NCBI RefSeq assembly: GCF_003096355.1
Contig: NZ_QEKI01000006.1
Span: 186,001 to 250,000 of the forward strand
Source: Pontibacter virosus
Lineage (GTDB): Bacteria > Bacteroidota > Bacteroidia > Cytophagales > Hymenobacteraceae
Direction: 5' to 3'
Length of the DNA stretch: 64,000 nt
Shown here one piece after another: positions 33,777 to 58,426 of the stretch (position 1 is its first letter; each line of letters starts with the position of its first letter). The position numbers were made by a program, and so were the translations under genes. The notes beneath the pieces are model-generated. The model did not search any database and was not told where the DNA came from. It worked only from the letters and a program-made list of their open reading frames with translations.

Positions 33777-35519
33777 CTATATCAAATCTCCCTGCTCCAG
33801 CCACTCCAGCCCTTCGGGCAACTCCCGGTTGTTGAACTCCAGGTGAATGACGCGGCGGTGCTTGTTGTTCTCTGTTTTAGAAGAGGCGTGCAGGGTCAGC
33901 GGTTTAAGCAGATGTACCCCGCCCTGCTTTACTTTGCAGCAGGCGCTGTCGGTGGTGTCTCTGATCTCAGCGATCTCCTGGTCCGACAGAATGCCCAGGT
34001 GCGTACGCGGGATCACCTTCAGCGCCCCATTTTGCTCGTCGGTATCATCCAGGTGGATGCGCAAGGTATAGGCGCTCTGCAGGTACTCCAACGGTGGACG
34101 CACGCTCACCAAACCGGCCTTGTTGGTCCAGCCGCTGAAACCTTCGGTTTCTTTCTTTTCCTGTACATTGATCGGCAAGTCCTGGTGCCAGGTCACATAC
34201 CAGTTTGATTTGGGCGGCTTATCAAAATAAATAGCTTTGGTCAGAAAGTAATCTGGTCCGAATCCTTCCTTGATTAAGGTACAGAGGTTACTATTAAAAA
34301 GCAGCTGCTTCAGGTTCGGAACCTCCTGCAACAGGCAACGGATGGCAAACAGGTCTTCGCTCCTGCTGAACTTTTCTTCATCGGCCGTTGCCTTGGCAAT
34401 CATGGAGCACATCCGGCTCACTTCCTTGCTGGTGTATAGGTTCTCCAGCACGGCATAGCCTCTGCGCTTCAACTTCATCATGCTGTGCGCCAATTCCGAC
34501 AGATTCAGTTCCTTGTCGTACTGCTCCGACCCATGGCGCATGCGCTCGTAAATACGGCGTTTGAGTTTATGCGGCTTGAGCACTTTCACACAGTCCCCGA
34601 AGCCAAGAATCTCCCGCTCCAGTTCGAAGTTAAGCTGTACCTGCAGCTGAATGATAATGCCATTAGCCGTTTTCTCCAGCAGTTTCTGTGAGTGATGGAT
34701 CGGTTTGGTCATGACATAGGGGGCGTTCTCCCGATTTACAAACAACTCCACTTCCTCCGGCCCCTCGTTCGGATTCACCGACACCCCCACCACATGTTCA
34801 AAGTATGCTGCCAGGTTCAGCCCCTCGTTTTCCAGGTAGGGTTCATGCGACTCCCCTACTTCCATGATGCGGTCCAGCGCCAGCAGCAGCACTGGTTGAC
34901 TACGCTTCTTGATGCCCAGCACAAACCAGCGGTTGCGGTACTCCTTCAGGAAATACGGGTGGAAGGTAAAGACCTGCGCTTCCCGCGCCTTGAAGGACTG
35001 GTAGGTCAGCTTTACCGGCCGCTTCTGAATGATAGCCTGGTAGAGTATATCGATGTGCTCCAACCCTTTCAGGTGCTCGTTCTTCTCCAGGTCAATCACG
35101 GGTGCTTGTTTGGTTTTGGCCGTGTGTATGCGGTCCTCCAGGCGCTGCACCATCCCGTTGAGCTCCTGGAAATGCGTAAAACCCTTGAACTGCCGCAGGA
35201 TGCCCGCCACCTCCGTCAGCTTGCCCAGATCCTGCTCAGTGAGCGGAATATTGGTAATGGAGTACTCCGGATCCTCGTAGGTGTAGTACTTCTTATCGGT
35301 AATGATAATGGGCGCATTGTAGCCCAGTTTATCCGAGCGCATCAGTTGCAGATCCATCTGCACCGTGCGACGACTTACGCCCTTGTCTATACCTTCGAAT
35401 TCGTAGAGTGCCTCGGAGCAGGCGTCAATCAGGTCTTCCAGCGTCCACTTTCTATACCTGTTGCGCAGGCAGTTGTCGATGGTGCGGTAACGGATGAGGG
35501 CATTGCGGTTGGCGGGCAT
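33777..35519 (-). CDS. WYL-domain regulator fused to a phytanoyl-CoA dioxygenase-like domain
   Basis: I start at the ATG at 35519 (MPANRNALIRYRTIDNCLRN), giving 580 residues. The upstream extension would run through the operator region. An N-terminal winged helix (about 1-75, RTVQMDLQLMRSDKL) is followed by a WYL domain (about 140-225: PVKLTYQSFKAREAQVFTFHPYFLKEYRNRWFVLG) and a WCX-like C-terminal extension. From about 340 a second module follows (YAVLENLYTSKEVSRM), with the Fe(II)/2-oxoglutarate motif WHQD (HxD), the distal His in PLTLHASSKT and Arg in RRVIHLEF. All dioxygenase ligands seem intact. WYL domains sense nucleic-acid or nucleotide ligands. The gene is divergent from the RNA-repair genes and probably controls them. 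Confidence 0.9.
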   Translation of the reverse strand: MPANRNALIRYRTIDNCLRNRYRKWTLEDLIDACSEALYEFEGIDKGVSRRTVQMDLQLMRSDKLGYNAPIIITDKKYYTYEDPEYSITNIPLTEQDLGKLTEVAGILRQFKGFTHFQELNGMVQRLEDRIHTAKTKQAPVIDLEKNEHLKGLEHIDILYQAIIQKRPVKLTYQSFKAREAQVFTFHPYFLKEYRNRWFVLGIKKRSQPVLLLALDRIMEVGESHEPYLENEGLNLAAYFEHVVGVSVNPNEGPEEVELFVNRENAPYVMTKPIHHSQKLLEKTANGIIIQLQVQLNFELEREILGFGDCVKVLKPHKLKRRIYERMRHGSEQYDKELNLSELAHSMMKLKRRGYAVLENLYTSKEVSRMCSMIAKATADEEKFSRSEDLFAIRCLLQEVPNLKQLLFNSNLCTLIKEGFGPDYFLTKAIYFDKPPKSNWYVTWHQDLPINVQEKKETEGFSGWTNKAGLVSVRPPLEYLQSAYTLRIHLDDTDEQNGALKVIPRTHLGILSDQEIAEIRDTTDSACCKVKQGGVHLLKPLTLHASSKTENNKHRRVIHLEFNNRELPEGLEWLEQGDLI

Positions 35520-35560
35520 GGGCAAGTATATTTTTGTGAAATATAGAAAATAATATCTCC

Positions 35561-35596
35561 TGCGCAAAAACACTGCGCAGTGCCTCTCTACCTTTG
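35561..35596 (+). promoter_or_regulatory. Operator and promoter of the RlaP pair (site 1)
   Basis: TGCGCA (35561-35566), seven bases, then TGCGCA (35574-35579) form a symmetric operator. Nine bases further is TACCTTTG (35589-35596), a perfect TAnnTTTG -7 box, 20 bp before the ATG. The operator takes the place of the -33 box, which suggests an activator site. The same operator recurs at 37435 and 42877. It also lies upstream of the divergent WYL-PhyH gene. Confidence 0.85.
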
Positions 35597-35616: not shown

Positions 35617-36378
35617 ATGCAAGAACTGATACTACAAAAGCTAAGGGAGATAGAACAACAGTACGAGGTGCAGATCCTTTTCGCCTCAGAAACCGGCAGT
35701 CGGGCCTGGGGCTTCCCCTCCCCCGACAGCGACTACGACGTGCGCTTCATCTACCGCCATACCCGCGACTGGTACCTGAGCATAGACGAGCAGCGCGACA
35801 CCAACGAGTACCTGAGCGGCGACCTTGACCTGGTGGGCTGGGACATCCGCAAGAGCCTGCGCCTCTTGCGCAAAACCAATGCGGCGATGTTCGAGCGCCT
35901 GCAATCGCCGATCGTATACCTGCAGCAGACCGATTTCAGGGAACAGCTGCTGGCGCTGGCACCAGCTTACTTCTCCTGCCGCGCCGGACTGCACCACTAC
36001 CTGAGCATGGCCAACAACTACTACAAAGCCTGCGAGGCCGAAGACCAGGTGAAGCTGAAGAGCTACTTCTACCTGCTGCGCACCACCCTCTGCAGTCGCT
36101 GGATCGTGGAGCGTCAAGGTATACCGCCGCTGCAATTCCGGGAGCTGCTGCCCTTGGTAGAAGACCAGGCGATGCGCGACAAGATAGAAACGCTGCTCGT
36201 GCTAAAGGCGCAGGTAGATGAGTCCTTCCGTCACCCAAAGGAAACAGAGTTGGAGCTATACCTGAAAGGCATCCTCGACTACTGCGACTCCCAGGCAAAA
36301 GATCTTGAGAAACACCAGGGCGAGACGGAGCCGCTGAACGAATTATTCAGAAAAACGATAGCATACCCATGGCACTAA
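35617..36378 (+). CDS. RlaP-type nucleotidyltransferase (PF10127), short form
   Basis: The 253-residue protein has the polymerase-beta-like nucleotidyltransferase core at its N-terminus: ASETGSRAWGFPSPDSDYDVRFIY, with GS and the metal-binding DxD (SDYDVRF), and a third acidic residue in GDLDLVGWDI. A helical second half follows. The family is called RNA-ligase-associated protein because its genes neighbour RtcB and other RNA ligases; the reaction is unknown, plausibly adding nucleotides to RNA ends. It is the first gene after operator site 1 and overlaps the second RlaP gene by 10 bp. Confidence 0.88.
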   Translation: MQELILQKLREIEQQYEVQILFASETGSRAWGFPSPDSDYDVRFIYRHTRDWYLSIDEQRDTNEYLSGDLDLVGWDIRKSLRLLRKTNAAMFERLQSPIVYLQQTDFREQLLALAPAYFSCRAGLHHYLSMANNYYKACEAEDQVKLKSYFYLLRTTLCSRWIVERQGIPPLQFRELLPLVEDQAMRDKIETLLVLKAQVDESFRHPKETELELYLKGILDYCDSQAKDLEKHQGETEPLNELFRKTIAYPWH

Positions 36379-37433
36379 CCATAGACGATCTGAAGCGAAA
36401 GAACCTGCTGCTGTTTGAGTGCATCAGCGGCAGCAGGGCCTATGGCCTGAGCACCCCTACCTCTGACACCGACATCCGCGGCGTGTTTGTGCTGCCGGAA
36501 CAGGACTACTTTGGTTTGAACTACGTGGAGCAGCTAAGCAACGAGTCGAATGACATTGTGTACTATGAGCTGCGGCGCTTTGTGGAGCTGCTTTCCAAAA
36601 ACAACCCGAACATGCTCGAGCTGCTGGCCATGCCCGAAGACTGCATCCTGTACAAGCACCCACTCCATGACAAATTCCAGGCTGAGGATTTCCTCTCGAA
36701 GCTGTGCAAGACCACCTTCGCCGGCTATGCGCTCACGCAGGTAAAGAAAGCCCGGGGGCTGAAGAAGAAAATCGTGAACCCGGTGGAGCCAGAGCGCCGT
36801 TCGGTGCTGGACTTCTGTTATGTAGCGCAGGGACAGGGCTCGGTGCCGGTGCAGGAATTCCTCGAGCAGCAGGGCCTGCGGCAGGAGGACTGCGGCCTGG
36901 CCCGCATCCCGCACATGCCCGACCTGTACGCGCTCTTCCACGAACCAAATACCCGACTTAAAGGCATTGTGCAAAGCGAAAAGGCAAACGACGTGTCGCT
37001 GAGCTCTATACCCAAAGGGCTGCAGTCGCTGGCCGTGATGAGCTTCAACAAGAACGCCTACTCCACCTACTGCAAAGAGTACAAGGAGTATTGGGAGTGG
37101 GTGGAAAAGCGCAACCAGGCTCGCTACGAGAACACGCTCTCGCACGGCAAGAACTACGACGCCAAAAACCTGATGCACACTTTCCGCCTGCTCGACATGG
37201 CCGAGGAGATCGCCACGCAGAAGCAAATCATCGTGCGGCGCCCCAACCGCGAGTTCCTGCTCCAGATCAAGGCCGGCGCTTTTGAGTATGCCGAGCTACT
37301 AGCGATAGCCGAGGAGCGGATTGCTAAAATGGATGCGCTGTATGAGGCGTCGGATCTGCCGGAGGAGCCGGATGTGGAGCGGTTAAATAAGGTGCTGGTG
37401 GAGGTGCGAAAAGATTTTTACAAAATAATTTAA
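36369..37433 (+). CDS. RlaP-type nucleotidyltransferase (PF10127), long form
   Basis: The 354-residue protein has the same core (ECISGSRAYGLSTPTSDTDIRGVFVLP: GS and DxD) and the third acidic position in IVYYELRRFVELL. It has a longer C-terminal region with HTFRLLDMAEEIATQKQIIVRRPNREFLLQIKAGAF, which matches other long RlaP proteins. It overlaps the short form by 10 bp, so the two are translated from one mRNA and may work as a pair. The stop lies at operator site 2, the promoter of rtcB. Substrate and reaction are not known. Confidence 0.88.
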   Translation: MALTIDDLKRKNLLLFECISGSRAYGLSTPTSDTDIRGVFVLPEQDYFGLNYVEQLSNESNDIVYYELRRFVELLSKNNPNMLELLAMPEDCILYKHPLHDKFQAEDFLSKLCKTTFAGYALTQVKKARGLKKKIVNPVEPERRSVLDFCYVAQGQGSVPVQEFLEQQGLRQEDCGLARIPHMPDLYALFHEPNTRLKGIVQSEKANDVSLSSIPKGLQSLAVMSFNKNAYSTYCKEYKEYWEWVEKRNQARYENTLSHGKNYDAKNLMHTFRLLDMAEEIATQKQIIVRRPNREFLLQIKAGAFEYAELLAIAEERIAKMDALYEASDLPEEPDVERLNKVLVEVRKDFYKII

Positions 37434-37434
37434 G

Positions 37435-37470
37435 TGCGCAAAAAGACTGCGCAGCTGGTCAATTCCTTTG
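37435..37470 (+). promoter_or_regulatory. Operator and promoter of rtcB (site 2)
   Basis: TGCGCA (37435-37440), seven bases, TGCGCA (37448-37453), nine bases, then TTCCTTTG (37463-37470). Only the first two positions of the -7 box deviate (TT for TA). The layout is identical to sites 1 and 3. The ATG lies 24 bp downstream. Confidence 0.83.
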
Positions 37471-37493: not shown

Positions 37494-38912
37494 ATGAACA
37501 CACTGACACTTACAGGGAAAGACCTGCTTGAAATCGGCTTTAAACCAGGAAAAGCAATCGGCATTGCCATCTCCATCATGGAAGAAACCCATCCTGAAAC
37601 TTCCAAAGAAAAGCAGCTACTGCTTCTGGCTAAAGTGCTTGCCTCGCCCTCCGATTACCAGGAAGATGAGGTTCTGGCTCCGCTTGCAGAAGCATTGCTC
37701 CCGCCAAAGCAGGAAGAAATCATTTCCCTTATGCCTGAGGCAAAGGAGTACACCATTTATGGGGCAGCCGGAATCGAAGCGGGTGTTCTGAGCCAGATGG
37801 ATACTGCTATGCGCCTGCCTGTTTCTGTAGGAGGAGCCTTGATGCCGGATGCGCACCAGGGCTATGGACTTCCGATCGGTGGCGTGCTGGCTACGAAAGA
37901 TGCAGTGATTCCCTATGCGGTAGGGGTTGACATCGGCTGCCGTATGAGCATGAGCCTTTACGCCATCGACGCGGATATTCTGACCAAGCAATCGGAGCAG
38001 CTAAAGCGCATGTTGCTCGACAACACGCGTTTCGGAACGGCTACTTTTAAAAACCCGAAAGACCACGCCATCATGGAGCGTCCAGAGTTCGCTGCTATAC
38101 CTGTCGTGAAGAGCCTGAAAGACCGTGCCTATAGCCAGCTTGGCTCTTCAGGTGGTGGTAACCACTTCGTGGAGTTTGGCGTGGTGGAGCTGCATGATGC
38201 GCAGAACGAATTCGGGTTGCCAACTGGTCACTACCTGGCGGCCCTCTCCCACTCCGGCTCCCGCGGTATAGGTGCCAGCATTGCCGGCCACTATACCAAA
38301 TTGGCGATGCAAAATTGCCGCCTGCCACAGGAGGCACGGCACCTGGCCTGGCTGGACCTGAACACAGCCGAAGGACAAGAGTATTGGTTGGCGATGAACC
38401 TGGCGGGCGACTATGCCTCGGCCTGTCATCACCAGATACATGAGCGATTAGCAACAGCTTTAGGTGAGCAGCCGCTGGCGGTCGTAGAGAACCACCACAA
38501 CTTTGCCTGGAAAGAAAAAGACGCGGCTGGAAACGAGGTGATCGTGCACCGCAAGGGCGCCACACCAGCAGGTCAGGGCGTGCTGGGTATTATTCCAGGC
38601 TCTATGGCTACACCAGGTTTTATTGTGCGTGGTAAGGGTGAAGCAAGCTCCCTGAACTCTGCTTCACACGGAGCAGGCCGGGTGATGTCCCGAACCAAAG
38701 CCAAACAGACGCTCTCGCTGCCACAGGTACAGTTATACCTGCAAGAGGCCGGCGTGGAAGTGATCGGATCAGGCCTGGACGAAGCACCTATGGTCTACAA
38801 GGACATCCGCCAGGTGATGCAGTCACAGCAGGATCTTGTGGAAGTAGTAGGAACTTTTAATCCGAGGATTGTACGGATGTGTGGAGATGAGATGTATATG
38901 GAGAAGGATTAA
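37494..38912 (+). CDS. rtcB: RNA-splicing ligase RtcB
   Basis: The start is ATG 37494, downstream of the promoter; the in-frame GTG at 37434 would lie inside the operator. The 472-residue enzyme has the RtcB metal and GMP-binding residues: MPDAHQGYGLPIGGV, VGVDIGCRM with the metal-binding Cys, GGGNHFVEFG, LSHSGSRGIG, NHHNFAWKE and SASHGAGRVMSRTKA with the guanylylated His. It joins 2',3'-cyclic phosphate or 3'-phosphate ends to 5'-OH ends in RNA using GTP and Mn2+. Context with RlaP, Ro60, Hen1 and Pnkp supports repair of damaged tRNA or other RNA. A strong terminator follows. Confidence 0.96.
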   Translation: MNTLTLTGKDLLEIGFKPGKAIGIAISIMEETHPETSKEKQLLLLAKVLASPSDYQEDEVLAPLAEALLPPKQEEIISLMPEAKEYTIYGAAGIEAGVLSQMDTAMRLPVSVGGALMPDAHQGYGLPIGGVLATKDAVIPYAVGVDIGCRMSMSLYAIDADILTKQSEQLKRMLLDNTRFGTATFKNPKDHAIMERPEFAAIPVVKSLKDRAYSQLGSSGGGNHFVEFGVVELHDAQNEFGLPTGHYLAALSHSGSRGIGASIAGHYTKLAMQNCRLPQEARHLAWLDLNTAEGQEYWLAMNLAGDYASACHHQIHERLATALGEQPLAVVENHHNFAWKEKDAAGNEVIVHRKGATPAGQGVLGIIPGSMATPGFIVRGKGEASSLNSASHGAGRVMSRTKAKQTLSLPQVQLYLQEAGVEVIGSGLDEAPMVYKDIRQVMQSQQDLVEVVGTFNPRIVRMCGDEMYMEKD

Positions 38913-38928
38913 ATTTAAGTCTTTGTTT

Positions 38929-38981
38929 TACACATTAAAAAGCTCCTGCCTTAGGTTAAGGCAGGAGCTTTTTAATGTGTA
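38929..38981. terminator. Strong bidirectional terminator
   Basis: A perfect 25-bp inverted repeat (38929-38953 and 38957-38981) has a 3-nt loop, with internal A- and T-runs. It ends rtcB and can also stop transcripts from the convergent YobI-like gene. Confidence 0.93.
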
Positions 38982-39081
38982 AATAATTTCAATATTTATT
39001 GGTTCCTTAAAGGACATAAATTTCATTTAAAGTACCTGGATCCCCCTAGCACTACACAATGTATTGTTCAATAATATATTA

Positions 39082-42000
39082 TTAATATTTAGCAAATACC
39101 CTTATTTTATTTTTCTTCTCAATGAGTTCGAATCGAATTATCATATCTCTTCCTTGAAGCTTTGTAAATAGTGTTCTATTATATGGAACATTGTCCAACA
39201 AAGGTTTATGCTGCTTCATAAATATTCTTGTATAATCACCTCCGATTTCTTCGATCAAAATTTGAATTTGATTATCATCTAAATTGTCAAAATGTAAAGT
39301 AAGAAGCGCTATACGTTTTTGAACAGAAGTATTAGCCTTGAACATAGCATTTAGCACTTCAAACTTTAATGAGATGAATTCATCTACTGGCAAAAGGTTA
39401 CAGACTGTACTAGCTATCAAAGGGTTTTCAACAATAGTACTATCATCAAAATTTTTGATGATAGATAACTTATTTGACAAGCTCATTCTATTTGATATTA
39501 AAACCTGATTCCAGTCCTTAGCATCTAAAGAAAACTCACCCATCCTTTCTAAAAAGTCGTCTTGGTAATTCTCGATTAGTTTAATATGCAGATCTTTTCC
39601 TTTTGATTTCAGACCATCGAAATTATCACATGAGAGTGTTAAGAATTTCTGCGCAATCATAACCTCAATATGCGCAATGCTCAATTGGTTATATTTTACA
39701 CGACTATACACATAAGGAATACTCTTTATCAGAAAAGAAAATGCATCTAGACTCAATTCATTGTTGTGTATTATTTTTAAAGAAAAATCTTTAATGTATT
39801 CAAGTTCTTTTTTAGTCTCATTATTTAACTTACTCCTAGATAGAACAGAATAATTTTGCTCAGAATTTAGGAATGTGATCAATGGTTCATCAAATTCATC
39901 GGCTTCTAAGTTCTCTAAATAGTCAAAAATGTTTTGCCAAGTTGGTTTAAGCTTGTTCTCAATAAGAAGAACTCGCCTAATTTCATTCTCATTGACTTCC
40001 TGTATAGAACCAATCATTGCCGTTTGGCTAATTAATAGTTTAGATCTAACTTCAATACTACAATCCTCTCTGTTTAAAATGGAAAGAATTGTAGTTTCAT
40101 CCTCCAATACATTATCATTAATTTTTAGCAATACATTTTTAATATACTCTTCAAGATTATTAGATAAATATATTGTAAGGTTATCTAGCCCTGAATTTAA
40201 AAGAGTTGTATAGTGTGCTTTATTTAATTCCACAATGTTTGTAGAAATCCTATAGTGTTTTACTAATACAGAGATGTTATGATCATTAATTATGTAGAGA
40301 TTGTTTTTATAAATATGATCAAATAATGTCTCAATTGAGCTATTAGGCAAATCAAGCTTTTCAAATAAAACCTTATTCTCCGTAATAAAAACTCGGATAG
40401 TATCTGTCTTCTTAAGGGCAGAACAGAAAGCCATAAAATCCTCCATCTGCTTCAGAAACCCTAACAAAGATTCAATTCCATCGAATTTGCTTATTGATTC
40501 TTTATCTCCGAAATCAAAAATCAGGATAAGTAGACTCCTTATTTCTTCTTCAGGTAATCCAGATTTGGAATATAAGTACTGCCACAATGTAGGCTTATAA
40601 ATGCACAGAGCCTTTATAAAAAGGCCGAGCCCATCTGAATTACGTTTTACAAATCCAAAAATAAATTGAAACTGCTTTTCCCCATCAACGGCAAGCCCTT
40701 TAAAGAAATTATCATACTTGCCCCAATACCTTTCCTTGTTCACAATCAAGCATTCAGCTAGATCATAATTCAATATTTCTTCCCTTTTAAAGTATTTATC
40801 AGGCAATCTTTTGAGCAGCGTATCACTTTCGGTTAATGGATATTCAAAGTCTAAATTAATGCCACTTTTTACTTTTCTCTCAAATACAAAGTCATCTTTA
40901 GTTAAACTTATTTCATGGAAAAGTGAGATATAATCATCATAATGCTCATCAATATAACCATTAAGCAAGAGGTTACGAATGAGATAATTCTCCTTAAACT
41001 CCGCTAAATATTTTTCTATTTCAACTAGTTCAAAAATTTCCTTTATGCTAAAAGACTCAATCTCAGATATTTTATTTTTTAATTTTTCCTTTTCTCCTTT
41101 TAGAATATTGATTTGATTATTTGCCCTTGCCACCAAAAGATTTTCCCTTTGACTATAGCTAAGTTTAGAAACTTCATTTTCAATAAATGAAAATCTGACA
41201 TCACTTTCTCTAGTATAAGAATCATTACACCTGTAATATTCGATTTTATTGGAGTTTTTAATTGATTCGAAATTTTCGTCTGTTAGAGCCTCAATAGTGG
41301 ATACCCGCTTATAGCCGATGGAGAAACTTTGAAAATTATTAATTTTCGAGACCAGTCTATTGATATATACCGCTCTAAGTTCCTCAATAGGTTTCTCCTG
41401 TTCGGATTCTAGCAAAGCAATGTGCTCATCAATATCCTTGATTTCAGAGGTGATTTCATTTACTAAGTCTTGTGAATATAAACCTTTCCCAGAGAGAAAT
41501 TTATAAAGCTTTCCTTTTCGCTTTCCTAATTCTCCAAAATCATCTGGATACATATTTTTATATACAATAATTGCGAAAAGATTATCCTGCACTAAATCTT
41601 TACTCAAGTTTTCTCTGTAAATCAAAAATTCATGAAAAATATTGATGAGTAACCTCATGTCTATATCATCAATAAAAGTTACTACATCAGAAGTAAAATC
41701 AGGAGAAAGAACACCTTCAAGATTTGCTTCGCTAATCAGTTTTGCCAACTGATCACCTGCGTTCGATGGATTAATGAAAGGAATAACAGGAATTATAAAT
41801 TCAAAAAACTTAACTCTTTCATTCTTGTCAGAGAACATCTCATCTTTGATGGCATAGATGAATTTTACTTTGCGTTTGATCAGATTCGAGTTATTAATTA
41901 AGTTATTGATTTCTCTAAGTTTAGTAAAGATGTCAGTGCTTTCAAACCTGTCAACATCTTCAATAACTATTACATTAAAATCTGTTCTTTCAAAAAAATA

Positions 42001-42738
42001 CAGTATCTCCTCTAAATGCTGGTTAAAGACAGATTTATCAATTGCCTCGCCAAGTTCAAATTCTCCCTTAATATTAAACTTGTTGATTTTAGAATTGCTA
42101 AAAGCTCTGTAAACGTTTTTAATAAAAAACCCAATACCCAGAAAAAAGAGAAGTGTTGATATAAAGGCCACCCAATCTAATTGATAATTAAAATACCATA
42201 CCTCTGGATTGAGTTTATCTATTTTATTGAACTTGAATAAAAATAAAACACTTAAGGCCCAAGCAATTATAAAAAATGTTAGGGCTATCAATTTACCTGT
42301 AGTAATATTAACTATTCTCTTAAATCTTGAATCTGGAACAACAGAGGGTTCTACATGATAAAATATTTGTTGCAGAATACTTATTTCCAATTTTCTTTCT
42401 AGAGCTTCATCAGCTTTATTATCTTTAAATGAAGCGAGGGAGACATTAAGGTATTTATAGTTAGGGTATAAGTGCTGGAAAGTTTTAAGTATTGTGCTCT
42501 TCCCACTTCCATAGCTGCCAGTTAAAGCGATATTATTAACATCTTTTGCATCAATAGCTTGTTTTAAACTATCGATATATGGCTTAATCTTTTTAAGGTC
42601 GTTCTGATCTGTTAAAATTCTCGGAGCTAGTGTATTTATAGTAGTGTTGGTTTCATGCTGGTTAATCTGGTTTCTGTTTTCAAGGTGATTAATAAGCTTT
42701 TTTAATTTTCCTATTGTCAATTCTGTAAAAGAATACAT
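39082..42738 (-). CDS. YobI-like large P-loop ATPase with membrane segments
   Basis: The 1218-residue protein has Walker A GSYGSGKSTILK (about 74), two hydrophobic segments (about 152-172 and 193-212) between Walker A and the Walker B-like VIVIEDVDRFES (about 255), and a following helix ELREINNLIN. This is the KAP/YobI-type layout (YobI-ATPase, PF20693). The C-terminal 700 residues are helical with no motif I know, and probably recognise a partner or signal. Base composition is far more AT-rich than the GC-rich genes on both sides, and the AGGTATA heptamer common in those genes is missing. It looks like a recent insertion, possibly a defence protein, into the RNA-repair cluster. Confidence 0.85.
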   Translation of the reverse strand: MYSFTELTIGKLKKLINHLENRNQINQHETNTTINTLAPRILTDQNDLKKIKPYIDSLKQAIDAKDVNNIALTGSYGSGKSTILKTFQHLYPNYKYLNVSLASFKDNKADEALERKLEISILQQIFYHVEPSVVPDSRFKRIVNITTGKLIALTFFIIAWALSVLFLFKFNKIDKLNPEVWYFNYQLDWVAFISTLLFFLGIGFFIKNVYRAFSNSKINKFNIKGEFELGEAIDKSVFNQHLEEILYFFERTDFNVIVIEDVDRFESTDIFTKLREINNLINNSNLIKRKVKFIYAIKDEMFSDKNERVKFFEFIIPVIPFINPSNAGDQLAKLISEANLEGVLSPDFTSDVVTFIDDIDMRLLINIFHEFLIYRENLSKDLVQDNLFAIIVYKNMYPDDFGELGKRKGKLYKFLSGKGLYSQDLVNEITSEIKDIDEHIALLESEQEKPIEELRAVYINRLVSKINNFQSFSIGYKRVSTIEALTDENFESIKNSNKIEYYRCNDSYTRESDVRFSFIENEVSKLSYSQRENLLVARANNQINILKGEKEKLKNKISEIESFSIKEIFELVEIEKYLAEFKENYLIRNLLLNGYIDEHYDDYISLFHEISLTKDDFVFERKVKSGINLDFEYPLTESDTLLKRLPDKYFKREEILNYDLAECLIVNKERYWGKYDNFFKGLAVDGEKQFQFIFGFVKRNSDGLGLFIKALCIYKPTLWQYLYSKSGLPEEEIRSLLILIFDFGDKESISKFDGIESLLGFLKQMEDFMAFCSALKKTDTIRVFITENKVLFEKLDLPNSSIETLFDHIYKNNLYIINDHNISVLVKHYRISTNIVELNKAHYTTLLNSGLDNLTIYLSNNLEEYIKNVLLKINDNVLEDETTILSILNREDCSIEVRSKLLISQTAMIGSIQEVNENEIRRVLLIENKLKPTWQNIFDYLENLEADEFDEPLITFLNSEQNYSVLSRSKLNNETKKELEYIKDFSLKIIHNNELSLDAFSFLIKSIPYVYSRVKYNQLSIAHIEVMIAQKFLTLSCDNFDGLKSKGKDLHIKLIENYQDDFLERMGEFSLDAKDWNQVLISNRMSLSNKLSIIKNFDDSTIVENPLIASTVCNLLPVDEFISLKFEVLNAMFKANTSVQKRIALLTLHFDNLDDNQIQILIEEIGGDYTRIFMKQHKPLLDNVPYNRTLFTKLQGRDMIIRFELIEKKNKIRVFAKY

Positions 42739-42876
42739 TCGTTTTGATATTATAGCTTAACTGATTTATATATAGATTGATAAAATATTCTGAAGTTATA
42801 TTACCAATTTAATATATTAATCTTTCACTTCATTGATTAGGTTAAAATTTTCAAAAAAATTAAATTTAATCCCTCC

Positions 42877-42912
42877 TGCGCAAAAAGACTGCGCACTAGT
42901 CCCTGAACTTTG
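42877..42912 (+). promoter_or_regulatory. Operator and promoter of the Ro60 gene (site 3)
   Basis: TGCGCA (42877-42882), seven bases (AAAAGAC, identical to site 2), TGCGCA (42890-42895), nine bases, then GAACTTTG (42905-42912) as the -7 region. The ATG lies 23 bp further. The spacing is the same as in sites 1 and 2. Confidence 0.83.
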
Positions 42913-42935: not shown

Positions 42936-44453
42936 ATGAAGTTCAACTTTCTCACACGCAAAAAGCACCAGACCGCAAACCACGAAGGAGCGCTGGCCTG
43001 GAAGATAGGACCAGCCGCCGATCTGTATGCAGCCGTTGTTACGGCCTCGCTGAGCGACACCTTCTACGAGAGCGGAAACCAGCGTCCGGCGCGCATCCGG
43101 GAGCTGATCGCGCAGAACGCCCCGGTGTTTGTGGCGAAGCTGGCCGTGTACGCCCGCACCCACATGCACCTGCGCAGCGTGCCGCTCGTGCTGGTAGTGG
43201 AGCTGGCCAAAGTGCACGCCGGCGACGACCTGGTGAGCCGCACCGTGGCCCGCGTGGTGCAGCGTGCCGATGAGATCACCGAGCTCCTGGCCTACTACAG
43301 CCTGAGCAACGGGCGCAGCGGCACTAAAAAGCTGGGCCACCTCTCCAAGCAGCTGCAGAAAGGGCTGGCCGTGGCCTTCAACCGCTTCGACGAGTACCAG
43401 TTTGCCAAGTATAACCGGGCCACCGAGGTGAAGCTGCGCGACGCGCTGTTCCTGGTGCACCCCAAATCCAAAGACGACACGCAGCGGGCGCTCTTCGACA
43501 AGATCGCCGCCGACACGCTGGCTATACCTTATACCTGGGAGACGGAGCTCTCGGAACTAGGGCAGCGGCCATTTGAGAACGCCGAGGCCAAAGCCGCCGC
43601 GGTGCGGGCAAAGTGGGAAGAGTTGATCGACAGCGGCCGGCTGGGCTACATGGCCCTGCTGCGCAACCTGCGCAACATCCTGCAGGCAGAGGTATCGGCG
43701 GCGCACATGTTGCGGGTATGCGCTACCCTCTCCGATGCCCGCGCCGTGCAGCAGGCCAAACAGCTGCCCTTCCGCTTCCTGGCCGCTTACCGCGAGCTGC
43801 TGCCCCTCACCTCCGGCTATACCGCCATGGTGCTGGGGGCGCTGGAGCAGGCCGTGCAGGCGAGCGTACAAAACATGCAGGGCTTCAGCGAGGAGGTGCG
43901 CGTGGTGGTGGCCTGCGACGTGTCGGGCTCCATGCAGCGCCCGATCTCCAACCGCAGCAAGATCCTCAGCTACGACATCGGGCTGATGCTGGGCATGCTG
44001 CTGCAGCTCCGTTGCCGCAACGTGGTGACAGGTATGTTCGGCGACCGCTGGAAGGTGATCAACCTGCCACAGCGCCGGGTGCTATCGAACGTGCAGGAGT
44101 TCTACCGCCGCGAGGGCGAAGTGGGCTACTCCACCAACGGCTACCTGGTGATCCGCGACCTGATCAATCGCCGCGTGCAGGCCGACAAGGTGATGCTCTT
44201 TACCGACTGCCAGCTCTGGGACAACACCGGCTACAACCACAGCCTGACCGAGGAGTGGAAGAAGTACAAAGCCATTGCGCCCAATGCCAGGCTATACCTC
44301 TTCGACCTGGCCGGCTACGGCAGCTCGCCTCTCAACCTGGTGCGGGACGATGTGTTCCTAATCGCCGGCTGGAGCGACAAGGTGTTCGATGTGCTGGAGG
44401 CCATTGAAAAGGGCGGAGATGCCCTGGCAGTCATTGAGGAAATGGAACTATAA
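42936..44453 (+). CDS. rsr: TROVE-domain Ro60 protein (Rsr-like)
   Basis: The 505-residue protein has an N-terminal HEAT-like TROVE domain (about 1-330; KHQTANHEGALAWKIGPAADLYAAVVTASLSDTFYE and AVYARTHMHLRSVPLVLVVELA) and a C-terminal von Willebrand A domain with an intact MIDAS motif DVSGSMQ (about 328) and TDCQLWD. Ro60 is a ring that binds Y RNAs on its outside and the ends of misfolded RNAs in its hole. In bacteria it works with exonucleases such as PNPase. The gene is driven by operator site 3, and its stop is followed within 7 bp by the first of five Y RNA genes, which strongly supports the call. Confidence 0.95.
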   Translation: MKFNFLTRKKHQTANHEGALAWKIGPAADLYAAVVTASLSDTFYESGNQRPARIRELIAQNAPVFVAKLAVYARTHMHLRSVPLVLVVELAKVHAGDDLVSRTVARVVQRADEITELLAYYSLSNGRSGTKKLGHLSKQLQKGLAVAFNRFDEYQFAKYNRATEVKLRDALFLVHPKSKDDTQRALFDKIAADTLAIPYTWETELSELGQRPFENAEAKAAAVRAKWEELIDSGRLGYMALLRNLRNILQAEVSAAHMLRVCATLSDARAVQQAKQLPFRFLAAYRELLPLTSGYTAMVLGALEQAVQASVQNMQGFSEEVRVVVACDVSGSMQRPISNRSKILSYDIGLMLGMLLQLRCRNVVTGMFGDRWKVINLPQRRVLSNVQEFYRREGEVGYSTNGYLVIRDLINRRVQADKVMLFTDCQLWDNTGYNHSLTEEWKKYKAIAPNARLYLFDLAGYGSSPLNLVRDDVFLIAGWSDKVFDVLEAIEKGGDALAVIEEMEL

Positions 44454-44743: not shown

Positions 44744-44881
44744 AAAAGTGGTGCCGTAGACAAGGGTTACTTCGTGGGTCGCAGGTTCGATTCCTGCCAG
44801 GGCGCGAGCGCCTTGTAGCTCAGCTGGTAGAGCAACGCCTTGCAAAAGGTTTAGGTCCTTTGTCGTCTGTCGCCCACTTTT
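44744..44881 (+). ncRNA. Y RNA, unit 3 with permuted tRNA-like module
   Basis: The outer stem is AAAAGTGG (44744-44751) with CCACTTTT (44874-44881). The constant GTGCCGTA precedes helix 44759-44766 with 44857-44864, then TTACTTCG. The 3' block is GTCTGTCGCCC. The module: T arm 44781-44797, acceptor-like hairpin 44799-44814 closed by a CGAG tetraloop, and a classical D arm with GCTC (44818-44821) and GAGC (44830-44833) around AGCTGGTA. A further hairpin-like stretch follows before the Ro helix closes. Confidence 0.88.
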
Positions 44882-44963: not shown

Positions 44964-45093
44964 GCAGGTGCCGTAGGCAAGCGTTACTTCGACTGTTAAC
45001 CGGCAGGTCGCGGGTTCGACTCCCGCCATTCCTTTGGGAATGTAGCTCAGTGGTAGAGCAGCATGTCGCTTGCTGCCTGTCGCCCTGCTTTTT
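44964..45093 (+). ncRNA. Y RNA, unit 5 with permuted tRNA-like module
   Basis: The outer stem is GCAGG (44964-44968) with CCTGC (45084-45088), followed by a T-run that can terminate transcription. The constant GTGCCGTA precedes helix 44976-44983 with 45067-45074, then TTACTTCG. The 3' block is GCCTGTCGCCC. The module: T arm 45010-45026 (loop TTCGACT), acceptor-like hairpin 45027-45042 (6 bp, loop TTTG), D arm with GCTC (45045-45048) and GAGC (45056-45059). This is the clearest copy of the permuted tRNA-like fold. Confidence 0.9.
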
Positions 45094-45189: not shown

Positions 45190-46566
45190 ATGATCTTAGA
45201 AATCACCACCACCCACTCCCCGGCCACAGACCTGGGCTACCTGCTGCACAAGCACCCGGATAAGGTACAGTCTGTAGAGCTGGCGGCGGGGAAAGCGCAT
45301 GTCTTTTACCCCGAGGCCACTGCCGAACGCTGCACCGCCTGCCTTATGCTCGACATCAACCCGGTAGACCTGGTGCGGGTGCGCAAAGGCAATTATGCAC
45401 TGCAGGACCAGTACGTGAACGACCGCCCCTATACCAGCAACTCCTTTTTAAGTTCGGCCATCTCCAAAGCCTTTGGCTCGGCGCTCAACGGCAGGTGCAA
45501 CCCTAGGCCGGAGCTGCCCCAGACGCCCATGCCCTTCACGCTGCGGCTGAGTTCGCTGCGTGTGGATGCGGAGTTGGAAGCCGTGGAGCGGCTCTTTGTG
45601 CCGCTGGGCTATGAATTGGAGGTGCAGACCATTCCGTTGGACACCGCTTTCCCCGGCTGGGGCCTGAGCAAGTACATCAACCTGACGCTGCACAAGACCT
45701 GCACGCTGCAGGAGCTGCTCTCCCATGTCTATGTGCTAATACCAGTACTCGACAACAGCCGTCACAGCTACGTCTCGCAGCACGACATCGAGATACTGAT
45801 GCAGAAAGGCGAAGGCTGGCTGGAGCAGCACCCGGAGCGCGACTGGATCACCCGCCGCTTCCTGCGCAACCTGCGCACCTATGCCAACGAGGCCATTCTG
45901 CGCCTGGCTGGCGAAGAGGCCTTGCCGCTAACTGATTACCGGTCGCCGCTACAGGAGAGCCTGCACCAGCAGCGCCTCCGCCGTGCCTTTGAGCGACTGA
46001 AAGAGAGCGGTGCGCAACGTGTGCTGGATCTGGGCTGCGGCTCGGGCAAACTGCTGCAGCTCCTGCTCCGCGAAGGGCAGTTTAAGAAGATCACAGGTAT
46101 GGACGTGTCGTTTTCAGAACTGCAGCTGGCCAAGGAAAACCTGCACCTGAACGAGGCCTCCCCTGCCCTGCGCGAGCGGCTCTCGCTTTTCCAGGGGTCG
46201 GTGACATACCTCGACGAGCGGCTGAAGGGCTACGACGCCGTGGCCCTGGTGGAGGTGATCGAGCACCTGGACGAGGAAAGGCTGCCGGCCATGGAGCGTG
46301 TCGTCTTTGGCTACGCTGCCCCGGATACGGTGGTACTCTCCACCCCCAATGCTGAATACAACGTCATTTATGAAAAGCTGGACGCAGAGGCCTTCCGACA
46401 CGAGGATCACCGTTTTGAGTGGACGCGGGAGCAGTTCAGCAATTGGTGCGACCACATCTGCCGCAGCTTTGGTTACGAGGTCAGCCTGGAGCCGGTGGGC
46501 CAGGAAGAGCCAGGAGTTGGAGCACCCTCCCAACTGGCGGTATTTAAAAAGACGAAACAAGCATGA
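45190..46566 (+). CDS. hen1: 3'-terminal RNA ribose 2'-O-methyltransferase Hen1
   Basis: The 458-residue protein has the bacterial Hen1 N-terminal domain (about 1-245, opening MILEITTTHSPATDLGYLLHKHPDK) and a C-terminal methyltransferase. The latter has the SAM loop VLDLGCGSGKLL (about 277) and the metal site with Glu-x-x-Glu-His in ALVEVIEHLDEERL, followed by His in FRHEDHRFEW. It methylates the 2'-OH at the 3' end of broken RNA before Pnkp seals it, so the site cannot be cut again. The ATG of pnkp overlaps its stop by 4 bp. CACCTTTG at 45105-45112 resembles the -7 box of site 1, but no operator precedes it, so hen1 may also be read through from the Ro60/Y RNA transcript. Confidence 0.95.
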   Translation: MILEITTTHSPATDLGYLLHKHPDKVQSVELAAGKAHVFYPEATAERCTACLMLDINPVDLVRVRKGNYALQDQYVNDRPYTSNSFLSSAISKAFGSALNGRCNPRPELPQTPMPFTLRLSSLRVDAELEAVERLFVPLGYELEVQTIPLDTAFPGWGLSKYINLTLHKTCTLQELLSHVYVLIPVLDNSRHSYVSQHDIEILMQKGEGWLEQHPERDWITRRFLRNLRTYANEAILRLAGEEALPLTDYRSPLQESLHQQRLRRAFERLKESGAQRVLDLGCGSGKLLQLLLREGQFKKITGMDVSFSELQLAKENLHLNEASPALRERLSLFQGSVTYLDERLKGYDAVALVEVIEHLDEERLPAMERVVFGYAAPDTVVLSTPNAEYNVIYEKLDAEAFRHEDHRFEWTREQFSNWCDHICRSFGYEVSLEPVGQEEPGVGAPSQLAVFKKTKQA

Positions 46567-49106
46567 AAGAAATAAAACTACCCGAAATAGCCCTGGTCCT
46601 GCTGGTGGGGCCGAGCAGCGCCGGCAAGAGCACCTTCGCCAGAAAACACTTTTTAGGCACCGAAGTGATCTCCTCCGACTATTGCCGCGCCCTGGTATCG
46701 GATGATGAGAACGATCTGAGCGCCACCGGAGACGCTTTTGAAGTGCTGAACTTTCTGGCCGCCAAGCGCCTGAAGCGGGGCAAGCTGACGGTGATCGACG
46801 CGCTCAACCTGCACAAGGACGACCGCGCCAAACTCGTCAAGCTGGCCAAGGACAACTACGCCCTGGCAGCCGCCATTGTGCTTGACACGCCTATACGCAA
46901 GCTGCTGGAAAGGCACGATGGGCGCACTGACCGCAACTTCGGGCGCCAGGTGATCGAGAAGCATTACGATATGTACCGCCGCACGCTCAAGTCCATCAAG
47001 CGCGAAGGCTTTGGCTATACCTATGTGGTGGACCCGGAGGCGGAGCTGCGGATCATACGGCAGCCGCTCTGGAACAACAAAAAAGAAGAGACCGGCCCCT
47101 TCGACATCATCGGCGACGTGCACGGCTGTTTCGACGAGCTGCAGGAGCTCCTGACAAAGCTTGGCTATAACTTAAGTAAAGGTGCAGACGGACGCTACCA
47201 GGTACAGGCCCCTGCCGGCCGTAAGGCCATTTTCCTGGGTGACCTGACAGACCGCGGACCCAAGTCGCCGGAGGTGCTGCGCCTGGTGATGGACATGGTG
47301 CGAAGTGGCAGTGCCCTCTGCATCCGCGGCAACCATGACGACAAGCTGCTGCGCTACCTGCAAGGCAAGAACGTGAGCCTGGCGCACGGGCTGGAGAAAT
47401 CGGTGCAGCAATTAACCGACACTTCTGATGATTTCAAACATGAAGTCAGCGCCTTCCTGGACGGACTTATCGCGCACTATGTGCTCGATGAGGGGAAACT
47501 GGTGGTGGCGCATGCCGGCCTGCCGGAAGAAATGCACGGACGGGCCGCCGCTGCGGTGCGCGCCTTCTGCCTCTACGGCGAAACGACCGGCGAGGTGGAT
47601 GCGTTCGGGCTGCCGGTGCGCCACGACTGGGCCAAGGGCTACCGCGGAAAAGCTACTGTGGTCTACGGCCATACCCCGGTGCCGGGCATCGACTGGCTCA
47701 ACAACACGCTCAACATCGACACCGGCTGCGTGTTCGGCGGCAGTCTGACGGCACTGCGCTATCCGGAGCGGGAGACCGTTTCCGTGGACAGCCAAGCAGT
47801 ATACAGCGAACCCATCAGACCGGTTATACCTGAAACGACAACAACAGCGCCACAACCAGAGGACGACATGCTCGACATTAGCCTGGTGCGGGAGAAGTAC
47901 ATCGTGGAGACAGGTATTGGCAAGCGCGTGATTGTGCGGGAGGAGAACGCGGTGGCGGCGCTGGAGGTCATGAGTCGCTTTGCCGTAGACCCCAAGTGGC
48001 TGGTCTACCTGCCGCCGACTATGTCGCCGCCTGAAACCAGCGGGTTGCCCGAGTATTTGGAGCACCCGCTGGAGGTCTTCAGCTACTACCGCAAGAACGG
48101 TGTGCGGCACCTGATCTGTGAAGAAAAGCACATGGGCTCCCGCGCCATCGCCATCGTCTGCAAAGATCCGGAAGTGGCCGTGAAGCGTTTCGGCATGCAG
48201 CACGCGGCGCCGGGCATTATCTACACCCGCACGGGACGCCGCTTCTTTTCGGATATGGCGACAGAAACAGCTTTCCTGGAGGTGCTACAAAAAGCACTCA
48301 CGGCGGCGGATTTCTGGGACAGCTTCGGCACCGATTGGGTGTGCCTGGATGGGGAGCTGCTGCCCTGGTCTTCCAAGGCAAAGGATCTGGTCGTAAACCA
48401 GTACGCAGCAGTCGGGGCTTCTGCCTCCAACAGCCTGGCCCGGGCTGGCGAAGTGCTGCAGCAGGCCCTGGCGCGAGGTCTGGAGGTGGATGAGATGCTG
48501 GAAATTGTCACGCAGCGGGCACAGGCCATTGATCAGTACATCACCTCCTACCGACACTATACCAGCGAAACGGAAGGAATCGAAGGGATGTCCTTTGCGC
48601 CTTTCCATATCCTGGCCTCAGAGGGGAAAGTGCACGCGGACCAGCCGCATACCTGGCACATGGAGCAGATCAGCCATATCTGCCGCCAGGACGAGCTCTT
48701 CCTGCTCCTGACCAGCCACCTGCTGGTGGACCTGGAGGATGCCGAGAGCGTCAATACCGCCGTGAACTGGTGGACGGAGCTGACAGCAGCCGGTGGCGAA
48801 GGCATGGTGGTCAAGCCGCTGGACTTTGTGCCGACATTCAAAGATAGGCTGATACAGCCGGCCATGAAGTGCCGCGGCAGCGAGTATTTGCGCATTGTCT
48901 ACGGCCCGGAGTATGACCTAAGCGGTAACCTGGAGCGGCTCAAGCAGCGCCACGTCAAGGCCAAGCGGGAGCTGGCCCTGCAGGAATTTGCGCTGGGTGT
49001 GGAAGCACTGGAGCGCTTTGTAAGGCATGAGCCATTGCGCAGGGTGCACGAGTGTGTGTTCGGCGTGCTGGCGCTGGAGAGCGAATCAGTAGATCCGAGG
49101 CTATAG
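46563..49106 (+). CDS. pnkp: Polynucleotide kinase-phosphatase and ligase Pnkp
   Basis: The 847-residue, three-domain RNA-repair enzyme has an N-terminal kinase with P-loop GPSSAGKSTF (about 16), a central calcineurin-type phosphatase with GDVHGCFDEL (about 183), GDLTDRGPKS, RGNHDDKLL, AHAGLPEEM and YGHTP, and a C-terminal adenylyltransferase (ligase) with nucleotidyl lysine motif EEKHMGSRA (about 523) and the motif V-like MVVKPLDF. It heals ends (5' phosphorylation, 3' and 2',3'-cyclic phosphate removal) and joins RNA with Hen1. The 4-bp overlap with hen1 fits the known Pnkp-Hen1 complex. The cell thus encodes two independent sealing routes side by side (RtcB and Pnkp). Confidence 0.96.
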   Translation: MKEIKLPEIALVLLVGPSSAGKSTFARKHFLGTEVISSDYCRALVSDDENDLSATGDAFEVLNFLAAKRLKRGKLTVIDALNLHKDDRAKLVKLAKDNYALAAAIVLDTPIRKLLERHDGRTDRNFGRQVIEKHYDMYRRTLKSIKREGFGYTYVVDPEAELRIIRQPLWNNKKEETGPFDIIGDVHGCFDELQELLTKLGYNLSKGADGRYQVQAPAGRKAIFLGDLTDRGPKSPEVLRLVMDMVRSGSALCIRGNHDDKLLRYLQGKNVSLAHGLEKSVQQLTDTSDDFKHEVSAFLDGLIAHYVLDEGKLVVAHAGLPEEMHGRAAAAVRAFCLYGETTGEVDAFGLPVRHDWAKGYRGKATVVYGHTPVPGIDWLNNTLNIDTGCVFGGSLTALRYPERETVSVDSQAVYSEPIRPVIPETTTTAPQPEDDMLDISLVREKYIVETGIGKRVIVREENAVAALEVMSRFAVDPKWLVYLPPTMSPPETSGLPEYLEHPLEVFSYYRKNGVRHLICEEKHMGSRAIAIVCKDPEVAVKRFGMQHAAPGIIYTRTGRRFFSDMATETAFLEVLQKALTAADFWDSFGTDWVCLDGELLPWSSKAKDLVVNQYAAVGASASNSLARAGEVLQQALARGLEVDEMLEIVTQRAQAIDQYITSYRHYTSETEGIEGMSFAPFHILASEGKVHADQPHTWHMEQISHICRQDELFLLLTSHLLVDLEDAESVNTAVNWWTELTAAGGEGMVVKPLDFVPTFKDRLIQPAMKCRGSEYLRIVYGPEYDLSGNLERLKQRHVKAKRELALQEFALGVEALERFVRHEPLRRVHECVFGVLALESESVDPRL

Positions 49107-56319: not shown

Positions 56320-56347
56320 AAAAATTTATTTTTGAGAAAGATACAAA

Positions 56348-56393: not shown

Positions 56394-56421
56394 GGTCAAC
56401 ATCAAAGAAAAAAATAACATT

Positions 56422-58286: not shown

Positions 58287-58426
58287 GTACCAGTGGTAAC
58301 TAGGTTCGCCTACTTGGCAAAGCGAAAACAGCTAAGGAGGTTTGAAAAGTAGCTGTATCGTTGCCTACCCCTGTTGATTCTTTGAACAGGCCTTTGAGAG
58401 GAACCAAATTATTACAACCTGCATTT

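Follow-up and report, generated by a model that had tools for sequence, protein, structure and literature searches.

A 64,000-nucleotide stretch of Pontibacter virosus DNA (contig NZ_QEKI01000006.1 of assembly GCF_003096355.1, positions 186,001 to 250,000; hereafter "the window") contains a gene, here called wyl-phyH, whose product unites a transcription regulator with an enzyme. The gene occupies positions 33777..35519 of the window on the minus strand and encodes 580 amino acids: a helix-turn-helix (HTH)-WYL-WCX regulator fused to a PhyH-type Fe(II)/2-oxoglutarate (2OG) oxygenase. The protein begins with MPANRNALIRYR. An alternative reading of 613 residues, beginning at 35618, appears in the list of open reading frames; the shorter form was preferred because homologues begin at its methionine. 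Divergent from this gene lies an island of RNA-repair genes in the order rlaP1, rlaP2, rtcB, a YobI/Tmn-like ATPase gene (opposite strand), ro60, two Y RNA-like genes, hen1, and pnkp. A preliminary description of the locus had pointed out both the fusion and its divergent placement from RNA-repair genes, and the placement is as it had claimed: RlaP, RlaP, and RtcB come first, followed by Ro60, Hen1, and Pnkp.

Two Pfam profiles mark the regulator half, both above their gathering thresholds: WYL (PF13280, 47.5 bits; residues 154-221, 34857..35060, minus strand) and WCX (PF25583, 34.5 bits; residues 254-328, 34536..34760, minus strand). No Pfam HTH profile matched the protein at E <= 0.001; an AlphaFold2 model of the full-length protein (mean predicted local distance difference test score (pLDDT) 85.4, predicted template modeling score (pTM) 0.63) contains a winged HTH made of three helices and two wing strands. 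The HTH-WYL-WCX architecture first proposed for this half is thus borne out. In the model, only residues 336-339 lie between the last WCX helix (317-335) and the first PhyH helix (340-353). WYL, WCX, and PhyH (the last at E <= 0.001) were all matched in 50 of the 50 members of an alignment (A1) composed of the window protein and 49 chosen near-full-length fusion loci. As for other libraries, NCBIfam returned nothing for the fusion protein, in PHROGs residues 48-221 had a single weak match, of unknown function, and the PhyH half had none, and PADLOC assigned both the WYL half and the second WYL protein of the window to CRISPR-associated WYL models.

The PhyH domain (PF05721, 53.1 bits against a cut-off of 22; residues 351-557, 33849..34469, minus strand) was the sole dioxygenase profile to match the window protein in Pfam; two of the 50 members of A1 also touch a Gig2-like profile. 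It carries the HxD iron motif H445-Q446-D447 (34179..34187, minus strand), which is invariant in A1, and the distal iron-ligand histidine H544 (33888..33890, minus strand), present in at least 90% of A1. Eleven residues past H544 is the likewise invariant R555 (33855..33857, minus strand), which by analogy we take to be the 2OG-binding arginine. Among 66 fused rows assembled for the PhyH tree and the residue comparison, a set that is near-full-length only and thus omits decayed rows, H445, D447, and R555 were kept in all 66 and H544 in 65. Modeled alone, the PhyH half was predicted with a mean pLDDT of 92.0 and a pTM of 0.89. Structure alignment placed it close to EvdMO1 (Z 21.8; 197 residues, 2.7 Å), AviO1 (Z 21.4), proline hydroxylase H11 (Z 21.4), PHYHD1 (Z 20.0), and human PHYH (Z 19.8; 210 residues, 3.1 Å), with overlays at only ~15-23% sequence identity. 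The same aligner, given the full model, listed 50 rows, all of which match the PhyH half, and a profile from alignment A2 found one solved structure by sequence, AviO1. The titles of many of the top-scoring solved structures point to amino acids or natural products as substrates. Profile, alignment, and fold therefore agree with the preliminary description that the C-terminus is homologous to PhyH and bears the HxD, distal His, and Arg, and the domain is probably a working Fe(II)/2OG hydroxylase with an intact motif.

The fusion is widespread. A homologue scan of genome contigs yielded 226 relatives, and the best 80 of these were taken forward; among them are 71 fetched fusion loci (L024-L094) that match most of the fusion protein at 50-89% identity, nearly all from named Bacteroidota. 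The genera include Pontibacter, Rufibacter, Cesiribacter, Chryseolinea, Fulvivirga, Winogradskyella, Psychroserpens, and Algibacter, with named isolates among them. We rejected an assembly artefact, which the preliminary description had raised as a way in which its idea could fail, on the grounds that the fusion recurs across genomes, including named isolates of many genera.

How the two halves came together was addressed with two quick trees. In a tree of the WYL part (94 rows, several long branches), fused and PhyH-less rows are intermingled, requiring 6 to 7 changes. In a tree of the PhyH part, the 66 fused rows group together in a single clade, separate from 20 standalone rows (Shimodaira-Hasegawa-like approximate likelihood-ratio test (SH-aLRT) 99), a result to be read with the facts that the root was placed by choice between fused and standalone rows, that the tree has no third group, and that long branches were flagged. 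The fused-domain clade spans several orders. We favor one fusion followed by repeated loss as the simplest account of these comparisons, with decayed copies as possible intermediates, and rejected a recent fusion in this genome on the strength of the single fused PhyH clade and the mixed WYL tree. In the HTH region, the consensus sequences of fused and PhyH-less orthologues agree at 84 of 90 residues. The initial interpretation thus stands in its domains, in its intact Fe/2OG motif, and in its RNA-repair link (neighbors and a shared operator-like repeat, below); sensing of O2, Fe, or 2OG by the oxygenase, or modification of nucleic acid, which it also raised, would be further steps. It had argued from a shorter WYL paralogue in the window that the fusion was a specific addition; the paralogue is present (55276-56319, minus strand), but the argument is weak because it is distant (39% identity over residues 1-325). 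The PhyH-less orthologues, rather than this paralogue, carry that argument, and the trees favor an old fusion over a recent addition.

The link to RNA repair is kept in most related loci. When the 66 fusion loci with 2 kb or more of upstream sequence are counted, RtcB is divergent in 58, and 60 have at least one of RtcB, Ro60, RlaP, Hen1, or Pnkp in divergent orientation, which answers affirmatively the preliminary question of whether such fusions associate with RtcB, Ro60, or RlaP. (This count leaves out L035, in which the simple gene finder did not call the regulator gene, and L037, L052, L075, and L086, which have less than 2 kb upstream.) Loci of PhyH-less orthologues, 19 of the 42 in a phylum sample of 395 Bacteroidota genomes, behave similarly: 17 of 19 have an RNA-repair gene on the opposite strand within a 20-kb stretch. 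Those without are L129 and L131, and the call in L137 rests on weak matches of 35-37 bits. Of nine loci without an intact PhyH (L095-L103), seven had enough flank, and two of those seven have RNA-repair genes. In the window, the divergent genes are rlaP1 (35617..36378, plus strand; PF10127, 264.5 bits) and rlaP2 (36369..37433, plus strand; PF10127, 97.1 bits), both encoding RlaP nucleotidyltransferases; rtcB, for the RNA ligase (37494..38912, plus strand; PF01139, 288 bits for a longer reading from GTG 37434); and ro60, for a Ro60/TROVE protein (42936..44453, plus strand; PF05731, 101.6 bits). Flavobacterial loci (e.g., L080:8502-9872) have a much more divergent RtcB, scoring 114 bits in Pfam vs. 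288 for that of the window, in the same place and with the repeat described next.

Many of these regulators have upstream of them an inverted repeat that resembles an operator, with the core TRCGCA-N7-TGCGYA and a spacer that runs from A-rich to T-rich; an outer C is found in 125 of 161 sites and an outer G in 81 of 161. The window holds three copies with no more than one mismatch to CTRCGCA-N7-TGCGYAG. Repeat 1, CTGCGCA-N7-TGCGCAG (35560..35580, plus strand), lies in the shared divergent promoter of wyl-phyH and rlaP1; repeats 2 (37434..37454, plus strand) and 3 (42876..42896, plus strand) precede rtcB and ro60, respectively, each with an exact core and one mismatch to the 21-mer. Because GTG 37434 falls within repeat 2, we take ATG 37494 as the likely start of rtcB. 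At up to two mismatches, chance gives a mean of 0.87 copies in the window, and the count alone is not decisive since 8 of 100 shuffles reached three. In the home genome (4.88 Mb), the core occurs at four places, three of them in this island, and a reversed-pattern control occurs at none; the fourth copy has an unlike spacer, and no target was identified for it. Ten relatives were also searched: the seven with the fusion hold 1 to 3 sites each, and three Pontibacter genomes without any regulator match hold 0, 0, and 1, with reversed-control hits of 2, 1, and 1 in G040, G052, and G001.

The association holds across the phylum sample, in which 44 of 395 genomes have the regulator (2 fused, 42 PhyH-less, each at 286 bits or more). 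A strict form of the repeat, TRCGCAAAANNNYTGCGYA, is found in 39 of the 395 genomes: 35 of the 44 with the regulator vs. 4 of the 351 without (tallies counted by hand; Fisher p 3e-37, which is not to be taken literally because the genomes are related). The reversed strict pattern is found in 6 of 395. In 32 of the 35 genomes, a strict copy is within 10 kb of the regulator. At the level of loci, L035 and loci with less than 100 bp upstream being left out, 65 of the 69 fusion loci contain the exact core, 48 of them no more than 400 bp from the regulator; for the other orthologue loci, the corresponding figures are 24 of 28 and 19. Of 40 control loci surrounding PhyH genes that had been classed as standalone, one, L163, contains the core. 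In that locus, a fusion gene (L163:9715-11446) is interrupted and reads as separate WYL and PhyH frames; rtcB lies divergent from it, and the repeat is there too. From the comparison of genomes, it is likely that the wyl-phyH protein binds the TRCGCA-N7-TGCGYA repeat.

The position of the repeat relative to promoter elements is nearly constant. Promoters of Bacteroidota carry TTTG at −33 and TAnnTTTG at −7. We oriented 161 sites, from the window and 100 scanned loci, with the A-rich side leading; sites too close to a locus end were omitted, and 91 of the 101 sources contributed a site. TTTG stands at offset +32 in 124 of 161 sites vs. 56 of 10626 other downstream positions, counts that are not independent because many loci are related. 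Conservation is lower for the T and A of the −7 box (A in place in 118 of 161, TA in 21 of 161). Given this fixed offset, the repeat covers the −33 region on the RNA-repair side. In the window, −7-like elements are TACCTTTG for rlaP1 (35589..35596, plus strand), at the fixed distance from repeat 1, and, by geometry and sequence, TTCCTTTG for rtcB (37463..37470, plus strand) and GAACTTTG for ro60 (42905..42912, plus strand). Downstream of the 158 sites outside the window, the nearest called gene is RtcB in 51, Ro60 in 20, RlaP1 in 13, an unknown 201-residue family in 11, the regulator itself in 4, and others in 7; 15 are unannotated, and 37 have no called start in range.

Does the oxygenase also exist apart from the regulator? 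A standalone PhyH subfamily of ~240 residues (L104-L123, L144-L162) has the motif residues of the fused domain. The subfamily is found in 28 of the 395 genomes at E <= 1e-20 (2 fused, 26 standalone), and 21 of the 26 standalone genomes also hold a PhyH-less regulator. Within one family (249 genomes), the standalone enzyme is present in 7 of 22 genomes with a PhyH-less regulator vs. 7 of 216 with neither form (p 5e-5, genome size and relatedness not being excluded; G079, a PhyH-less genome, has a broken copy below the cut-off). Enzyme and regulator thus tend to go together even when separate. In a standalone set of 39 rows, which includes the broken fusion gene of L163, H445, D447, H544, and R555 are kept in all 39. 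Compared with the 66 fused rows, residues shared at 100% are H445, D447, R555, R394, K428, F432, K434, W440, W464, H489, D491, and N497. We read this as a sign that fused and standalone enzymes share one chemistry and one kind of substrate. The neighborhoods of the standalone gene are not conserved between families, and the neighbors name no substrate; in 7 of 39 loci, a gene from a dicarboxylate symporter cluster (one member of which was checked with Pfam) is at most five genes away. By eye, L105 and L109 adjoin genes resembling Fe-S assembly genes. At the cut-offs used, no genome in three sets holds both forms; fused genomes in those sets number 2, at least 19 (by open-frame length), and 9 plus 2 with decayed ends. 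In the set of 390 genomes, of which at least 19 are fused and ~67 standalone, the chance of such non-overlap is p ~0.03, uncorrected for relatedness, and mutual exclusion is suggestive only.

A Foldseek search with the whole model returned DriD bound to single-stranded DNA (ssDNA) and target DNA as its top match (E 3.0e-13) together with PafBC, followed by AviO1, SnoK, and other PhyH enzymes. DriD of Caulobacter crescentus is described as a WYL activator of a DNA-damage response that responds to ssDNA (PMC12340889). The same account places it on ATACGAC-N7-GTCGTAT, overlapping the −35 element at a constant distance from −10, and has it switch on the two genes across its promoter rather than its own gene (PMC12340889).

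On sequence grounds, there is good support for tying the regulator to the RNA-repair island, to a matching DNA site, and to the placement of that site at promoters. Beyond this, we consider it reasonably probable that wyl-phyH encodes a DriD-like activator of an RNA-repair regulon that carries an active hydroxylase; it is called DriD-like, and an activator, because spacer, core, and placement match. The protein would act as a dimer on the Bacteroidota RNA-repair island, binding TRCGCA-N7-TGCGYA, which replaces the −33 box, before rlaP1-rlaP2, rtcB, and ro60. Its WYL domain would bind a signal, for which a nucleotide or nucleic-acid fragment arising from RNA damage is the likeliest candidate, and RNA polymerase would then be recruited; that the signal is a nucleic acid or nucleotide is suggested by analogy with DriD and PafBC, and activation rather than repression seems the likelier mode. 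The PhyH domain, a few residues from the WCX dimerization domain, may hydroxylate that signal, or a metabolite linked to it, and thereby tune or end the response. This last step is the weakest, and we hold it tentatively, with some doubt; it was the first choice for the role of the enzyme because the enzyme is close to the dimerization domain and co-occurs with the regulator when separate. In a more specific version, PhyH would hydroxylate the RNA-derived or nucleotide signal held by the WYL domain, making a self-limiting switch whose induction depends on O2, Fe(II), and 2OG. Such a switch strikes us as rather unlikely; were it real, an effector-modifying oxygenase would be built into a transcription activator, and the standalone enzyme of relatives would do the same chemistry in trans.

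Several observations weigh against the idea of a DriD-like activator with an active hydroxylase. In six of the 66 fusion loci, the flank is devoid of RNA-repair genes, and L025, L038, and L053 also lack the repeat; G141, G364, and G387 carry the strict repeat only away from the regulator. Over its whole chain, the model overlays only loosely on DriD, with a root-mean-square deviation of 13-21 Å and a template modeling (TM) score of 0.28-0.30 by query length (0.45-0.51 by target length; 339-352 alignment columns for DriD chains of 319-329 residues), and phmmer against PDB chains lists no DriD at E <= 1; since sequence search finds no DriD chain, we do not file the protein as a DriD. It is also conceivable that the other direction of the shared promoter is repressed. 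The PhyH domain is dispensable for the regulator: PhyH-less orthologues retain the repeat and the neighbors. Some fused copies have decayed. The iron ligands are lost in the PhyH part of L095, L097, L101, and L103; in L095, L101, and L103, the HxD Asp and the distal His are both gone, and in L097, Asn-x-Glu replaces HxD before the gene is cut by the contig end. In L101, WYL and WCX still match Pfam and PhyH no longer does; L036 has a broken end, and in L085 the distal His is a Tyr. In a wider set of 79 fusion-type proteins, decayed and broken members included, H445 is kept in 78, D447 in 75, H544 in 73, and R555 in 75 (with 4 gaps). A dead oxygenase as a general rule was rejected, as the motif is kept in most fused rows; the decay in L095, L097, L101, and L103 is real. 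Finally, no RNA-repair gene lies near the standalone gene in the fetched stretch of 38 loci with the gene called (none was called in L146), and standalone loci lack the repeat, the single positive among 40 controls being the broken fusion of L163. The standalone enzyme being away from RNA repair and from the repeat, its substrate need not concern RNA.

This last consideration bears on the possibility that PhyH is a passenger, that is, a common hydroxylase of small molecules, no different from the standalone enzyme, which was fused for co-production and not for sensing. We judge it somewhat unlikely, and nearly as likely as a tuning or clearing role. The conserved motif residues common to both enzymes agree with it, as do the lack of RNA-repair context and repeat around the standalone gene in the loci examined, the symporter-cluster gene near it in seven loci, and the regulator context that persists in genomes without PhyH. 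It fits poorly with a single clade of fused domains across several orders, with the very short join to the dimerization domain, and with the co-occurrence of the standalone enzyme and PhyH-less regulator (subject to the reservations on size and relatedness given above). Those same shared residues argue against the thought, voiced in the preliminary description, that the domain reports O2, Fe(II), or 2OG through the occupancy of its site, which would alter the regulator: a site common to a free-standing enzyme points to a substrate that is turned over rather than to sensing alone. The intact Fe and 2OG residues and the short join to WCX would suit such a co-substrate sensor, which we nevertheless find quite improbable. 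More improbable still is that PhyH serves as a further repair enzyme, hydroxylating or demethylating damaged RNA ends. Three of the four repeats in the home genome do precede RNA-repair genes, but the Pfam type is PhyH and not AlkB, the titles of many top-scoring solved structures indicate amino-acid or natural-product substrates, and the standalone enzyme is away from RNA-repair genes in the loci examined.

A different alternative concerns the regulator half, which might hold the divergent operon off until ligand brings release. WYL repressors of this kind have been reported: BrxR, which acts on inverted repeats (PMC9122601), and CapW, which represses a defence operon (PMC10693628). By eye, moreover, a TTTG inside the repeat could be the −33 box of the wyl-phyH promoter itself. 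Against a repressor stands the promoter geometry: on the RNA-repair side, 124 of 161 sites place the repeat over the −33 region at a constant distance from the −7-like element, as is reported of the activator DriD. We consider repression rather unlikely, though it has real precedents. A DriD-like activator of RNA repair is the reading that we retain.

The remainder of the island contains further RNA-directed genes. Two Y RNA-like (YrlA) genes follow ro60, at 44757..44869 (plus strand; RF02553, 46.1 bits, E 2e-7) and 44989..45086 (plus strand; RF02553, 48.6 bits, E 3.6e-8), both below the Rfam gathering threshold of 69; comparable pairs occur in L026 and L027, and none was found in L048 at E <= 0.01. 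Next come the genes for a bacterial Hen1 RNA 3'-end methyltransferase (45190..46566, plus strand; TIGR04074, 637 bits) and a Pnkp kinase-phosphatase-ligase (46563..49106, plus strand; PF16542, 575 bits). ARAGORN found no tRNA. Just past rtcB, at 38915-38991, several weak Rfam matches on both strands, far below gathering, perhaps mark a hairpin or terminator. The slot between rtcB and ro60 varies: it holds the Tmn-like YobI ATPase in the window (39082-42738), and in related Pontibacter either Dsr2 (L026:2632-6300, 1533 bits; L029:2642-6310, 1494 bits) or a helicase (L027:3477-6287). It looks like an exchangeable site for anti-phage cargo in the RNA-repair island of some Pontibacter, and interchangeable anti-phage genes in the island would fit a link between RNA repair and phage conflict. 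In a survey of recurring genes in 100 loci (L024-L103 and L124-L143, with Pfam tested on one member each), an SPFH/Band_7 protein (~366 residues, e.g., L084:5388-6485) was present in 34 loci, always divergent and often beside RtcB; a TPR protein in 23, divergent in 22; and an RF-1-domain protein (~236 residues, e.g., L090:7778-8485), presumably PrfH-like, in 7, divergent in 6. Elsewhere in the window, the second, distant WYL regulator gene (55276-56319, minus strand) is found beside genes for a DUF6791-ThiF protein, a DUF6088 protein, and an AbiEii-type toxin; this region (55276-60240) suggests another defence-type cluster.

These features matter in that the triggers and substrates of RNA repair are still open in most bacteria. 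In many Bacteroidota, the sequence makes it possible to read off a regulator and its regulon along with the likely operator and the geometry of the promoters, and the 21-bp site is directly testable. The built-in hydroxylase and its free-standing counterpart offer a route to a metabolite through which RNA repair might be linked to central metabolism or oxygen.

How does wyl-phyH compare with known systems? The wyl-phyH protein and DriD (PMC12340889) share the winged HTH-WYL-WCX build, a 7-bp spacer, a TACG core (TRCG here), and a site over the −35/−33 region at a fixed distance to the −10/−7 element, across a shared promoter. They differ in that DriD, as described there, has no PhyH domain and takes ssDNA from DNA damage as its signal, whereas the neighbors here are RNA-repair genes. 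PafBC, a mycobacterial WYL activator, likewise has the winged HTH-WYL-WCX build and is a structural match, with weak sequence matches (E 0.28-0.29); as reported (PMC6789036, PMC11804915), it differs as a heterodimer or natural tandem fusion that works by sigma adaptation at a −26 motif on a DNA-damage regulon. WYL domains joined to enzymes were described by Makarova et al. (2014, PMC4012209), with exoRNase, restriction endonuclease, HNH, helicase, and nucleotidyltransferase partners; the partner here is PhyH, and neither "PhyH" nor "dioxygenase" occurs in the main text of that paper, as distinct from its supplementary list. A regulator with the same job is RtcR, which is encoded divergently from RtcB, in some species with Ro60 and Y RNA (PMC7790460), and which is described as a CARF plus sigma-54 AAA+ activator of the rtcBA RNA-repair operon (PMC4012209); Pfam found neither CARF nor sigma-54 AAA+ domains in the wyl-phyH protein.

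On the enzymatic side, the PhyH hydroxylases AviO1, EvdMO1, GriE, proline hydroxylase H11, EctD, and PHYH share the fold and the Fe/2OG motif and differ in that none of the solved matches listed is a transcription regulator. Ada-AlkB fusions, which our literature search did not surface, are likewise transcription factors that carry an Fe(II)/2OG dioxygenase and serve in the response to nucleic-acid damage; they belong to another regulator family and another dioxygenase family, and Pfam found no AlkB-type domain in the wyl-phyH protein. In the literature that we found on WYL proteins, PhyH/dioxygenase fusions, RtcB/Ro60/Hen1 repair, and DriD, which did not extend to supplements or to one key review, the fusion, its operator, and its regulon are undescribed. 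WYL activators, other WYL-enzyme fusions, PhyH enzymes, and RtcB/Ro60 repair operons are each already known separately; what is new here is the divergent repair context, the inverted repeat, the promoter spacing, the PhyH-less orthologues, and the standalone counterpart.

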